From Gloeocapsopsis dulcis (GTDB lineage Bacteria > Cyanobacteriota > Cyanobacteriia > Cyanobacteriales > Chroococcidiopsidaceae), in contig NZ_CP119968.1 in NCBI RefSeq assembly GCF_032163395.1, positions 1,225,501 through 1,289,500 on the forward strand: a DNA stretch of 64,000 nt. The letters are read 5' to 3'. The notes beneath the pieces were generated by a model. It saw nothing but the letters and a program-made list of their open reading frames with translations, searched no databases and was not told where the DNA came from. A program made the position numbers and the translations under genes. Below, piece by piece: positions 2,130 to 16,688 of this stretch. The stretch's first letter is position 1, and each line of letters opens with the position of its first letter.

Positions 2130-3420
2130 TAGACTTAGGCGGGAGTAGAGCTACCATTTAGGCAGGGTTGAACAAGAGGATAAACCGATGCCTAGACTTG
2201 CTCCAACACCGCTGCAATTGACTGAATCGGAGCGAGAGCAACTGCAACAGTTAATCAATCGTCATAGCACTGCGCAGCAAATTGCTTTAAGAGCGAGCAT
2301 TATTCTGCTGTCCGATAAAGGACTCAATCATCGAGAAATTGCTCGTGAACTCAACATCAGTCGAGACATGGCGAGGTTATGGCGCAATCGCTGGTTGGCA
2401 TTAAGCGAAAAGGAATTGCCCGTGGTGGAACGATTAGTCGATGCGCCCCGAGTGGGAGGACCGATGACCTTTAGCTTGGAGCAGATTCTACAATTGTTGG
2501 CGATTGCATGTGAGAAGCCTGAGGCTTATGGACGGCCTATTAGCCATTGGACGGCACGAGAACTGGCTTCGGAAGTGGTCAAACAAGGTATTGTTGAGAG
2601 CATCTCTCCTCGGCATGTCGGACGATTGATGAACGAAGCCGATTTGAAACCGCATCAGTCACAATACTGGTTGAATCCCCCCCCGACCCTCAATTCGACG
2701 AGAAGGTCAAAGACATCTGTGAAGTCTACCTAAGTGCAATTGAACGTGCAGGGACGGGAGAGCGAACGATTTCAATCGATGAAATGACGGGAATCCAAGC
2801 CCTAGAACGCAAGTTTCCTGACCATCCAATGCGTCCAGGCAAACGAGAACGACGAGAATTTGAGTACATTCGCCATGGGACTCAAACGTTAATTGCCAGT
2901 TTTGATGTGGCTCAAGGTAAGGTTGTCGAAGCAATGGTCGGCGACACTCGCACCGAGACGGACTACCTCAGTCATGTTCAACAGCTGATTGCCACTGACC
3001 CTAACGCTATTAAATGGCATCTGGTGATGGATTGCTTGAACATTCATCAATCCGAATCATTGGTTCGATTTGTGGCACAAACCGAAGGGCTTGGGATTGA
3101 CTTGGGAGTGAAAGGAGAATCCGGCATTCTCAAATCGAGGCAAACACGAGCTGACTTTTTACGCGACCCCACTCACAAAATTGTCTTTCACTTTACCCCC
3201 AAGCATTGTTCTTGGCTGAATCAAATTGAGATTTGGTTTGGGATTTTGATTCGTAAACTACTCAAACGTGCCAATTTCATTAGCACAACTCAACTCAAAA
3301 CCCGTATTCTTGAATTTATCGATTACTTCAATCGCACAATGGCGAAACCCTTCAAATGGACTTACCAGGGTAAAGCCTTGAAGCAGTAAGTAAGGGTGGG
3401 TAGATTCACGCCCAAGACTA
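2130..3420 (+). mobile_element. IS630-family insertion sequence
   Basis: Terminal inverted repeats can be read: left GACTTAGGCG from 2132 and right CGCCCAAGAC ending at 3418 (8 of 10 matching), followed further in by related GTAG.G/TACC blocks. They are flanked by TA dinucleotides at 2130-2131 and 3419-3420, the duplicated TA expected for IS630/Tc1. Outside these, CTAG is present on both sides, so the pre-insertion site was probably a palindromic ACTAGTACTAGT. The element is about 1.29 kb and holds one transposase in two frames. Confidence 0.85.
2188..3389 (+). CDS. IS630 transposase, split by a -1 frameshift at a C8 run
   Basis: The first frame (2188-2733) carries an N-terminal helix-turn-helix ([20 protein letters not shown], then [15 protein letters not shown]). 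The second frame (readable from about 2685 to 3389) carries the DDE catalytic part: [19 protein letters not shown] and [11 protein letters not shown] supply D, D and E. The two frames join cleanly by a -1 shift at a run of eight C at 2677-2684, giving WLNPPP followed by [12 protein letters not shown]630 members often use or suffer slippage, so this may be programmed or a disabling indel. Joined length is about 400 residues, near normal. Confidence 0.85.
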
Positions 3421-3438
3421 CTAGTAAAAGTTGCTTTA

Positions 3439-3849
3439 ATGTCAGGTGAAACGAATTTGGCTGTTTTACTAAAGTCAATGAATCCTATTCTTCGTGATGA
3501 AGAATACGTTTTTTGCAGTGTGGATCCTCACAATAATAATTATTTGAAACTCGATCCTATCTGTATATTTCGCGAAGATGAAGGGCTAACACTGATTGTA
3601 CAGCGCGATCGCGCAGATGCTGCTGATATGTCCTATTCGTCTGTTTTTCGGATGGTGACATTATCTATTCATTCCAGCCTAGATGCTGTAGGGTTTTTAG
3701 CTACCATCACCAGTAAGCTTGCTGAATATGGCATCAGTGTTAACCCAGTTTCAGCATATTATCATGACCACTTATTCGTTCCGGCTGCACGAGCTGGCGA
3801 GGTTATGAAGTTGTTACGTGAGTTCTCGACTGATAGAGCCAATGTGTAA
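3439..3849 (+). CDS. ACT domain protein (ACT_3/DUF2241, COG3602-like)
   Basis: 136 residues. The N-terminal half has the family-like LKSMNPILRDEEYVFCSV, and the C-terminal half reads as a ligand-binding ACT fold (MVTLSIHSSLDAVGFLATI, then KLAEYGISVNPVSAYYHDHLFVP). ACT domains usually sense amino acids; the specific ligand is unknown. The gene starts about 20 bases after the IS630 right end, so its original promoter may have been separated from it. It converges with rfbB, with 11 bases between the stop codons. Confidence 0.8.
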   Translation: MSGETNLAVLLKSMNPILRDEEYVFCSVDPHNNNYLKLDPICIFREDEGLTLIVQRDRADAADMSYSSVFRMVTLSIHSSLDAVGFLATITSKLAEYGISVNPVSAYYHDHLFVPAARAGEVMKLLREFSTDRANV

Positions 3850-12397: not shown

Positions 12398-13740
12398 TTG
12401 ACACTCCCCACGAATAGAATTCGGGGGATTCTTCATTCATTCAGTCAACTTATCTGATAGATTCTCATCTAACAGACAGAGGTTGGTCTGTCCTGAAGCG
12501 TTAATTCCCCCATGCCCTGGGGTACTCAAATTCAATGCCATCCCTGCCCGATTTAAGCCTTTGACTAGGATGTTCAGGGCGGCATTTTCATCTCTGTCGA
12601 TAACCAAACTACATTTAGGACAAACATGGGTACGGACGCTCAAAGACTTCTTTACCCTAGTTCCACACCCCGAACAATCAGAACTTGTATATTGAGGCAG
12701 CACTGCTACAACTGGACGTTTATACAACATCCCGTAGCGTTCTATCCAACCAGTAAACTGTGTCCAAGCGGCATCCGATATTGACTTCGATAATTTGTGG
12801 TTCTTGACCAGATTTTTCACATTTAACTTCTCATACGCAATGAAATCGCTAGATTCCAGTAGCGCCTTCGCGGTCTTAACCACAAAGTCTTTACGCCTGC
12901 GCTGTACTGTTAAATGTCTTTTACCTAACCGCCTACACGCTTTCTTGTAATTATTTGACTGTTTAACTTTTTCTCCCTGTTTCTTATGTGTGCGAAACTT
13001 ACTTGACACGCGACGTTGCGCCCTCTTTAAGGCTTTTTCAGCCTTTCTCAAGTGTCTAGGATTTTCAACTGTTGACCCATCACTGGCAGTATAAAACTTG
13101 GATAAACCTAGATCAATTCCTAAACATTTTCCTGTAGGTGCAATACTGATGTTTCGTTCTACAGCAATGCAAAACTGGCAGTAGTAGCCATCACTACGAC
13201 GAACAATCCTGACTCGTTTAATTGCTTTTAGAGCATAGAAGTTTAAATCGTAGCTTCCTACTAATTTGAACGTCCCTGCCTTAAATTTATCGGTAAAGGT
13301 AATCCGTTTTCTGTCAGAGCTTAATTTCCAGCCAGCAACTTTATACTCAACTGAACGATTATTTTTTTGAAATTTTGGAAATCCTTTTTTGCCAGGTACT
13401 TTCGCTTTACAGTTGTCGTAAAAGCGACGAATCGCAGACATTGCCCTTTCTGATGCCGCTTGAGCCGCAGAAGACTCTAGCTTGCCTGCCCACGGAAACT
13501 CTAAATTATGCCTAATTTTAGTCGCTTCGGCATTAACTTCAGATAACTTGACATTGCGTCCATCTATCCACAAACGGAGGCACTTGTTCCGCACAAACTG
13601 AAAGGTGCGAATCATCTCATCGACGATTCGGTATTGAGTTTCTCTCCCTTTTAATTTGAATTCTAGAGTTATCATCAAATATATAATACTATAGTTCTCA
13701 CAGGCGATCAATCTGTGTGACGGGGGATTAAAATCCCCTG
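12398..13740 (-). mobile_element. IS200/IS605-type element with TnpB only
   Basis: The element carries tnpB but no Y1 transposase tnpA. Its right end, read on the minus strand after the gene, is a stem CCCCCGAAT/ATTCGTGGGG (12404-12425) followed by AGTGTCAA, ending near 12398; this hairpin layout is typical of IS605-type ends. Upstream of tnpB a GGGGATTAAAATCCCC stem (13724-13739) probably belongs to the left end; how much of 13740-13850 also belongs is unclear. Without tnpA it can only move if mobilised in trans. Confidence 0.7.
12437..13675 (-). CDS. tnpB: TnpB RNA-guided nuclease (IS605 OrfB)
   Basis: About 412 residues from the ATG at 13675 (MITLEFKLKG), which fits the family better than the longer frame from 13711. 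The RuvC-like triad is complete: Asp in CLGIDLGLSKF, Glu in FIAYEKLNVKN and Asp in IDRDENAALNI. A zinc ribbon CSGCG...CPKC lies between the last two motifs. An N-terminal wedge/helical region is present. TnpB proteins bind a right-end RNA (reRNA) and cut target DNA, which preserves the element after excision. The reRNA scaffold should overlap the 3' end of this gene, with its guide taken from 12397 downward on the minus strand. Confidence 0.9.
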   Translation of the reverse strand: MITLEFKLKGRETQYRIVDEMIRTFQFVRNKCLRLWIDGRNVKLSEVNAEATKIRHNLEFPWAGKLESSAAQAASERAMSAIRRFYDNCKAKVPGKKGFPKFQKNNRSVEYKVAGWKLSSDRKRITFTDKFKAGTFKLVGSYDLNFYALKAIKRVRIVRRSDGYYCQFCIAVERNISIAPTGKCLGIDLGLSKFYTASDGSTVENPRHLRKAEKALKRAQRRVSSKFRTHKKQGEKVKQSNNYKKACRRLGKRHLTVQRRRKDFVVKTAKALLESSDFIAYEKLNVKNLVKNHKLSKSISDAAWTQFTGWIERYGMLYKRPVVAVLPQYTSSDCSGCGTRVKKSLSVRTHVCPKCSLVIDRDENAALNILVKGLNRAGMALNLSTPGHGGINASGQTNLCLLDENLSDKLTE

Positions 13741-15533: not shown

Positions 15534-16382
15534 TTAGTCGCTCAACTTGCCTGAATCCATCAATTTCTCAACTTCCGCCTGCGTCACTGGAGACGGAGGA
15601 ATTTCTCCGCTGATGATTTGATTACAGATATCTACACACCTATCGCAGATGAAGACACCTGGACCTGCAATGAGAATATCAACTTGTTCCTGGCTTTTGT
15701 GACAAAATGAACAGCAAAGTTCTAGCTCTGGCTTAGTTTGGGCAGAAGTGTTGATAGTCATTGTCTTAATCTCCTGGAGTGAATTAGGTTGAATTTGATC
15801 TTGAAGAAGTGATAATTGGTTTCTCAGTTGATGACGAGATTTGTGTAAACGCCCTTTCACTGCACTGACTGAAATATTTAAGCAATTTGCCACTTCTTGT
15901 AGGCTGAACTGCTCATGATAGAACAGTAAAATTGCTGAGCGATTCTTTGGAGATAGAGTATCGACTGCTTCTAGTAATGCAGCGTAGAGTTCTTCCTGTT
16001 CTGCCACTAGCTGAGGATCGGGTGAACTCCCAGCGATTGGCGGTGGTTCATCCACTAAATTCCCCACCATTGCCTCAAGAGAAAAACAGACTACCTTACG
16101 ACGACGCAAATCGTTCCGGCAAACGTTGAGGACAATGCCATATAGCCAACTCTTAAAGCGTGTTGGGTCATTAAGTTTCTTCAGTGAAAGATAGGCTTGC
16201 AGCATTGCATCTTGCACAAGCTCTTGAGCCAAATCCTCATTGCCGATCGCTCGTTTAGCAAGGCGTTGTGCCATTGGTTTATAACGCAACATAAGCTGAC
16301 CGAATGCAGCTTTATTTCCCTGCCGTGACAGAAAAACTAGCTCCAGATCACTTGGTTCGGACACGCTTTCCTCGCTGAACAA
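15534..16382 (-). CDS. ECF-like sigma-70 factor fused to a ClpX-type zinc finger
   Basis: 282 residues. Residues about 10-95 form sigma region 2 ([20 protein letters not shown], then [18 protein letters not shown] and [20 protein letters not shown]). Residues about 130-190 form region 4 ([20 protein letters not shown], then [20 protein letters not shown]). After a linker, residues about 225-262 are a C4 zinc finger almost identical in pattern to the ClpX N-terminal domain ([11 protein letters not shown]...[14 protein letters not shown]). No AAA+ domain follows. Sigma regions promote transcription of a specific regulon; the zinc finger may bind partners or sense metal or redox state. An internal ribosome-binding site could also yield the zinc finger alone. 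Confidence 0.88.
15759..15775 (-). promoter_or_regulatory. Internal ribosome-binding site and ATG inside the sigma-zinc-finger gene
   Basis: On the minus strand a perfect AGGAG (15771-15775) lies 9 bases before an in-frame ATG (15761) in the linker between the sigma and zinc-finger domains. Translation from here would give a free 75-residue zinc-finger protein ending at 15534. The spacing is good, but use of the site is inferred only. Confidence 0.4.
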
Positions 16383-16688
16383 CTCTACTAATTAATAGTG
16401 GTAAGGTGGACAGAAAAGGTTACTCTGGTCAAAAAAGATATTAAATCAGAATCGCGAACAAGTTACTGCCAGCACAACAAGCCCATGAGTTCGCGAGGCT
16501 ACTAGCGGCGGGTAAAGGGAGGTTGTTAGAGCGCCAAATTGGTAGAAACGTACTCAAAAGCCTACTTGTAGATGTCAAGATTAAGTTAGCGTAACTTTGC
16601 TTACAAGATGATGTTTTGAACTTGGTGGGTGCGATCGCCTCTTTTTATCGCCAACTCAAAATAGAACTCGCATTAATTTAAGCCAAAG
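16383..16688. other. Intergenic region with a short unexplained open frame
   Basis: This stretch separates the sigma factor and the AraC pseudogene, which are divergent. A plus-strand open frame of about 48 codons (about 16453-16593) has no ATG and reads ANKLLPAQQAHEFARLLAAG followed by a basic tail. I do not recognise it; it may be a gene relic. The last 70 bases contain a HIP1 site and the probable promoter of the AraC gene. Confidence 0.3.

Follow-up and report, generated by a model that had tools for sequence, protein, structure and literature searches.

An uninterrupted frame of 282 codons on the minus strand of the 64-kb window, the whole stretch of DNA that was analysed, encodes an ECF-type sigma factor joined to a ClpX-type C4 zinc domain, termed sigma-ZF here (15534-16382). 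The features of the locus, all read on the minus strand, are as follows.

16392-16423, minus strand: ECF-like promoter GTAACCTTT-N13-CCACTATTAA (-35 at 16415-16423, -10 region at 16392-16401), from the upstream alignment
16365-16391, minus strand: short leader with GAGGAA ahead of the start codon, from the upstream alignment
15534-16364, minus strand: sigma-ZF gene from the likelier GTG start, 276 codons plus TAA, from the open frame, Pfam and relatives
16095-16292, minus strand: Sigma70_r2 (Pfam), residues 31-96 of the 282-aa frame
15828-15980, minus strand: Sigma70_r4_2 (Pfam), residues 135-185 of the 282-aa frame
15771-15775, minus strand: internal Shine-Dalgarno-like AGGAG, 9 nt 5' of the internal ATG, from the sequence
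15534-15761, minus strand: predicted free zinc-domain protein of 75 aa, opening at the internal ATG 15759-15761 (start codon conserved in all 22 loci, preceded by a Shine-Dalgarno-like word in 20 of them)
15609-15716, minus strand: zf-C4_ClpX (Pfam), residues 223-258 of the 282-aa frame

All three Pfam domains exceeded their cut-offs in the 282-aa translation (Sigma70_r2, 1.4e-13; Sigma70_r4_2, 9e-10; zf-C4_ClpX, 1.2e-15), and the NCBIfam sigma70-ECF model TIGR02937 scored 91.4 bits against a cut-off of 42.9. Regions 2 and 4 were present without a Pfam match to region 3, a trait of ECF (group 4) factors. The tail scored 57.5 bits (cut-off 27) over profile positions 2-38 of 39 in zf-C4_ClpX, and no AAA+ module was detected by Pfam after the finger, where the gene stops within 24 residues. 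The domain order proposed in the sequence-only reading, sigma regions 2 and 4 followed by the ClpX-type finger and no AAA+ module, was thus borne out. The coordinates 15534-16382 are those of the longest open frame, which opens at TTG 16382. A GTG at 16364 is the likelier start and would give 276 aa, since an ATG or GTG occupies this position in relatives, the annotation of the Tolypothrix PCC 7910 plasmid begins there and GAGGAA lies just upstream. AlphaFold models of the full protein (mean pLDDT 65, with Foldseek matches to ECF sigma folds only) and of the tail alone (mean pLDDT 58) were both too weak to reveal the fold of the tail. No anti-sigma gene was found by Pfam among the four flanking proteins (HxlR, AraC, dienelactone hydrolase and GNAT), and an adjacent cognate anti-sigma gene is not required for orphan ECF factors. 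Elsewhere in the window, an open frame at 12437-13711 on the minus strand resembles a TnpB-type transposon protein by eye.

On sequence grounds the tail is a true relative of the ClpX zinc-binding domain (ZBD). All seven distinct PDB sequences that matched the tail profile at E <= 0.001 were ClpX, the best at E 7.6e-19, which disposes of the possibility that the C-terminal region is not homologous to zf-C4_ClpX. The four cysteines were retained in the aligned tails, and conservation reached past them to CSFC, LIAGP and C-x-x-CV-x-x-C, a pattern more in keeping with a surface for docking or dimerisation. The pair of residues ahead of LIAGP is Arg-Lys or Lys-Lys in most ClpX proteins and mostly Asn, Asp or Glu followed by Ile or Leu in the tails. 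Twenty tails and 24 ClpX domains fell into separate groups with support of 99/95, in a short and poorly resolved tree of few columns, whose bootstrap had not settled and which drew a warning of long branches. The sole other zf-C4_ClpX match in the window genome (G000:C1:2348090) was ClpX itself, a separate gene. Second, divergent clpX-like genes (L113, L115 and L117) were observed beside the standard clpX in the genomes G623, G497 and G466; in G623, all that was detected of the standard clpX was an open frame of 87 codons.

A collection of 22 distinct tail-bearing loci, with either the fusion or its remains, was assembled from a contig scan and from plasmid and genome searches. This number of loci excludes the concern that the fusion arose from a read error in a single assembly. 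The contig scan by itself returned 20 loci, with thirteen (L013-L025) covering most of the query and the rest being fragments or plain ClpX.

The promoter GTAACCTTT-N13-CCACTATTAA occurred with 0-2 mismatches in all 18 aligned upstream regions, 23-28 nt 5' of the start codon. Mean pairwise identity among these regions was 98.8% in the -35 element and 90.5% in the -10 element, falling to 57.2% in the spacer and, in an ungapped comparison, to 37.3% in the 40 nt further up. The loci of G497 and G459 also carry it, giving 20 of 22 loci with 0-2 mismatches; none was present at L027 or at the locus of a CobW fusion described below. It also preceded, at one mismatch, both paralogues with a nuclease tail (in G011 and G466). 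A search of 14 genomes with up to 3 mismatches recovered a copy with 0-2 mismatches at the sigma gene in 13 of them (in G011 and G466 this is the gene with the nuclease tail), and yielded 27 further matches against 57 for the reversed control pattern. A looser search in six genomes gave counts near the control once one repeat was excluded; in the window genome 14 of 31 matches were copies of this repeat and the rest were near the control. Matches with 2 mismatches exist at G001:C22, G002:C6 and G623:C84, and no convincing target promoter beyond the sigma gene was found in the 14 genomes at up to 3 mismatches or in the six genomes searched more loosely. A looser promoter would be missed by these searches, and further targets of the sigma factor are possible. 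The repeat, which contains GTAACTTTTAAATGTCGCCATCCTACTAT and is present in 14 copies in the window genome, is probably a mobile element.

An AAC in the -35 element is typical of ECF promoters, and autoregulation is a trait of many of them. We infer that sigma-ZF activates its own gene, because the pair GTAACC and CCACTAT is conserved upstream of the sigma-ZF genes while the more distant DNA differs and no other convincing copy was found in the 14 genomes. The conserved -35 and -10 elements could also serve a different sigma factor.

A second conserved signal lies within the gene. All 22 loci have a Met or Val codon in one and the same column of the linker (ATG in 20, GTG in 2), in surroundings where the adjacent residues vary in sequence and length. 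A Shine-Dalgarno-like 4-mer at a spacing of 4-12 preceded this codon at 20 of 22 loci compared with 3 of 73 other internal ATGs of the same coding sequences; it was absent from L025 and L026, both with a damaged sigma part. Among 696 internal ATGs from longer open frames (window plus 14 loci), 10.5% had such a word ahead of them, as did 14.9% of 141 roughly called gene starts, and given this bare enrichment the signal may carry little weight in the carrier genomes. The 16S 3' end with the anti-Shine-Dalgarno sequence CCTCCTTT was present twice. The Gln or Lys codon that yields AGG ended in G in 20 of the 21 rows bearing either residue, though the two residues interchange there and G-ending codons make up about a third of Gln and Lys codons in the family overall. 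This column ranked first of 27 Gln/Lys columns with a second column close behind (17 of 18), a single rank among related rows that is weak when taken alone. Taken together, these signals make it rather probable that a free zinc-domain protein of 75 aa is also made from the sigma-ZF gene. The promoter and the internal start, the features most informative as to mechanism, go beyond the sequence-only reading.

We propose, tentatively and with a probability of about 0.4, that sigma-ZF is an orphan, self-driven ECF sigma factor with a ClpX-type ZBD as its regulatory tail, and that the full protein and a free ZBD come from one mRNA. The proposal builds on the domain homology, the conserved promoter and the conserved internal start signals. 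RNA polymerase carrying sigma-ZF would read GTAACC-N-CCACTAT at its own gene and set up positive feedback, and the resulting mRNA would yield the full sigma-ZBD protein and, by way of the internal ATG, the free 75-aa ZBD. The ZBD would most likely act by protein contact, either pairing with other ZBDs or replacing the ZBD of ClpX in docking. Docking or dimerisation is favoured for the tail because the ZBD of Escherichia coli ClpX dimerises, is needed for the RssB-mediated degradation of sigma-S and inhibits degradation in vitro when added as a free domain (PMC7226468). In the likeliest circuit, the tail would give the Clp machinery, or an adaptor of it, access to the sigma factor, or would keep this factor dimeric, and the free ZBD would compete for that contact and so set the amount of active sigma. 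A link to ClpXP is plausible, and one ECF sigma factor, AntA, is degraded by ClpXP (PMC8999054). The coupling to proteolysis, the built-in anti-sigma action and the metal or redox sensing suggested in the sequence-only reading are all candidate roles of the tail. A bolder version, which we regard as improbable, would make promoter, sigma and zinc domain a portable, self-transcribing cassette with two products, with its own gene as the sole recognisable target and, as its main output, a free ClpX-like zinc decoy that reprograms the docking of ClpX adaptors; in that case the sigma factor would serve to amplify a Clp modulator and not to switch a regulon.

One unusual genome bears on the alternative that the tail is a metal or redox sensor. 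G466 carries both tail types, the zinc tail and a BFN_dom (bifunctional nuclease) tail on the same sigma type; G011 also has the latter, and the two nuclease-tailed proteins were recovered in the sigma search with E values of 3e-94 (G011) and 7e-72 (G466). The elements concerned are listed here.

L007 1438-2685 and L141 2290-3486: sigma-BFN fusions
L087 8332-9894 and L141 (G466:C7, about 3.203-3.226 Mb): zinc-type cluster of CobW-sigma-zinc-finger, sigma-BFN, cobW, a cobW fragment, folE, thrS and znuABC

The zinc-tailed sigma of G466 is fused behind a CobW (COG0523) GTPase domain in a protein of 521 aa. This fusion lies with cobW, folE and thrS, followed by the BFN-tailed sigma, and znuABC is found about 20 kb further on. 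Scans used a palindrome consensus that we take to be that of Zur. A perfect match, TGATAATGATTATCA, was located 29 nt 5' of the CobW-sigma-ZF open frame and a second perfect match ahead of znuA, and the 20-kb stretch held five matches within 2 mismatches where 0.20 were expected. The Zur regulon of Anabaena comprises znuABC, COG0523 genes, thrS2 and folE2 (PMC6103462), with thrS2 in a Zur-controlled operon (PMC4787780), a gene set that resembles the neighbours in G466.

On the sensor account, a zinc-bound, reduced C4 site would hold the sigma factor inactive (or active), and loss of zinc or oxidation would flip it, as in OrbS and CorE, whose C-terminal sensing domains are rich in cysteine. The retained cysteines and the precedent of OrbS (PMC9023288) are consistent with this, and it is because of G466 that the account keeps an appreciable share of our belief, even though we consider it unlikely. 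The zinc context is confined to that one genome: relatives of CobW, FolE, ThrS and ZnuABC were found by BLAST at none of 30 other loci, with G466 as the positive control, and no Zur-like palindrome within 2 mismatches of the assumed consensus was present in the 64-kb window. A whole ClpX-like surface would also be superfluous in a pure sensor.

A plainer possibility, which we hold doubtful, is that the ZBD merely dimerises, tethers or stabilises the sigma factor and that the internal start signals are left over from an ancestral separate gene. The BFN tail, like the zinc tail, is joined at a Met (with AGGA ahead of it in G011 and none in G466), as would be expected if the joined part stems from a gene that lay downstream and had a start codon already, and the dimerisation of ClpX ZBDs would suit such a role (PMC7226468). 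Synonymous turnover is strong in deep pairs, where only 62 of 122 conserved codons were identical between the window copy and L066, and yet the AGGA, spacer and ATG have been kept, which argues against a mere leftover.

The sigma-ZF fusion is sparse in distribution. The architecture count called for by the sequence-only reading gave at least 12 genomes with the tail among 388 from the order (11 with a tail-type match well above that of ClpX, plus G459, recognised by reading). A full-length fusion was present in two of 386 genomes of the phylum (G000 and G001), with more distant sigma-only matches in 19 others. A sigma-only search of the 388 genomes returned 13: the zinc tail was present in 11 and the BFN tail in G011, whereas G420 had a truncated remnant. 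No intact tail-less relative was returned at the search threshold. G001, a genome of the same genus, encodes a protein that Gloeocapsopsis crepidinum LEGE 06123 has in identical form, which makes Gloeocapsopsis or a close relative the probable source of the window. Plasmid searches matched 513 records, one of which, from Tolypothrix PCC 7910, had 64% identity over 99% of the query; this copy sits on a 38-kb mobilizable plasmid. No conserved neighbours were found outside close kin. A viral source was considered and rejected, with no relative in viral contigs, where none of 37 candidate stretches was confirmed, and with 33 matching phage records, the best 10 of 33 at 24-31% identity, which is ordinary sigma similarity. 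The contig of L023, titled Candidatus Gracilibacteria, has the same sequence as the cyanobacterial genome G623 and is probably mis-binned.

The sigma part was damaged at six of the 22 loci and the tail at none, in a set of loci collected by having a tail. We rejected this difference as evidence that the tail outlives the sigma part, given the tail-based sampling, a probability of about 0.15 from length alone and the G420 remnant, in which part of the sigma persists and no tail was found. At L027 the sigma part is deleted and the tail remains with TAAGGAG and ATG; the tail dN/dS of L025-L027 (0.51 over 73 codons) was uninformative. In the sigma part of L025 an insertion at about 3300-3680, whose ends form the inverted repeat GTTAGACACTG/CAGTGTCTAAC, is miniature-transposon-like. 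The patchy occurrence, the plasmid copy, the flanks common to close kin only and the damaged and truncated copies would suit a decaying mobile orphan gene of little present function, but we think this improbable given that intact copies are constrained (sigma dN/dS mostly 0.1-0.3), the promoter elements are kept and two of the frameshifts, which come from fragmented assemblies, could be errors.

As a rule, a sigma factor is kept in check by an anti-sigma protein encoded separately. Under the proposed orphan ECF factor with a regulatory ZBD, one gene may encode a sigma factor and a free copy of its own regulatory domain, a domain borrowed from a protease subunit. In the nuclease-tailed paralogues, the same sigma core is paired with a different C-terminal domain.

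Several known systems share parts of this arrangement. The ClpX ZBD (PDB 1ovx and 2ds5-2ds8) is a C4 finger with CSFC, LIAGP and CxxCVxxCN in common with the sigma-ZF tail, whereas the ClpX unfoldase carries the AAA+ module that sigma-ZF lacks, and the tails group apart from it. ECF sigma factors with C-terminal extensions (CorE, ECF41, ECF57 and ECF115) likewise combine a sigma core with an extension, but no ClpX-type domain or internal tail start is described for them in the text available of PMC8999054. The C-terminal cysteines of OrbS, an ECF factor of Burkholderia cenocepacia, form an on-board metal sensor (PMC9023288), and cysteines are also found in the sigma-ZF tail; OrbS senses Fe(II) by a short motif, whereas sigma-ZF has a whole zinc-finger domain as judged from its sequence. 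Gevin, Latifi and Talla (2024) reported zf-C4_ClpX as 6.29% of the accessory domains on cyanobacterial sigma factors in 361 genomes (PMC11119718), about nine cases by our own arithmetic from their percentages, and their sigma70 family F.3 has the same order of r2, r4_2 and C-terminal accessory domain as sigma-ZF. The architecture is thus already in print and its mere existence is not new. For these sigma factors, the text available of that article describes neither a promoter nor an internal start, and it names no other tail and no mechanism. No earlier description of the promoter and internal start of sigma-ZF was found in the openly licensed articles searched, supplements aside. To this record the present analysis adds the ECF-like promoter, the internal start, the BFN-tailed relatives and the CobW fusion of G466 behind a Zur-like palindrome.
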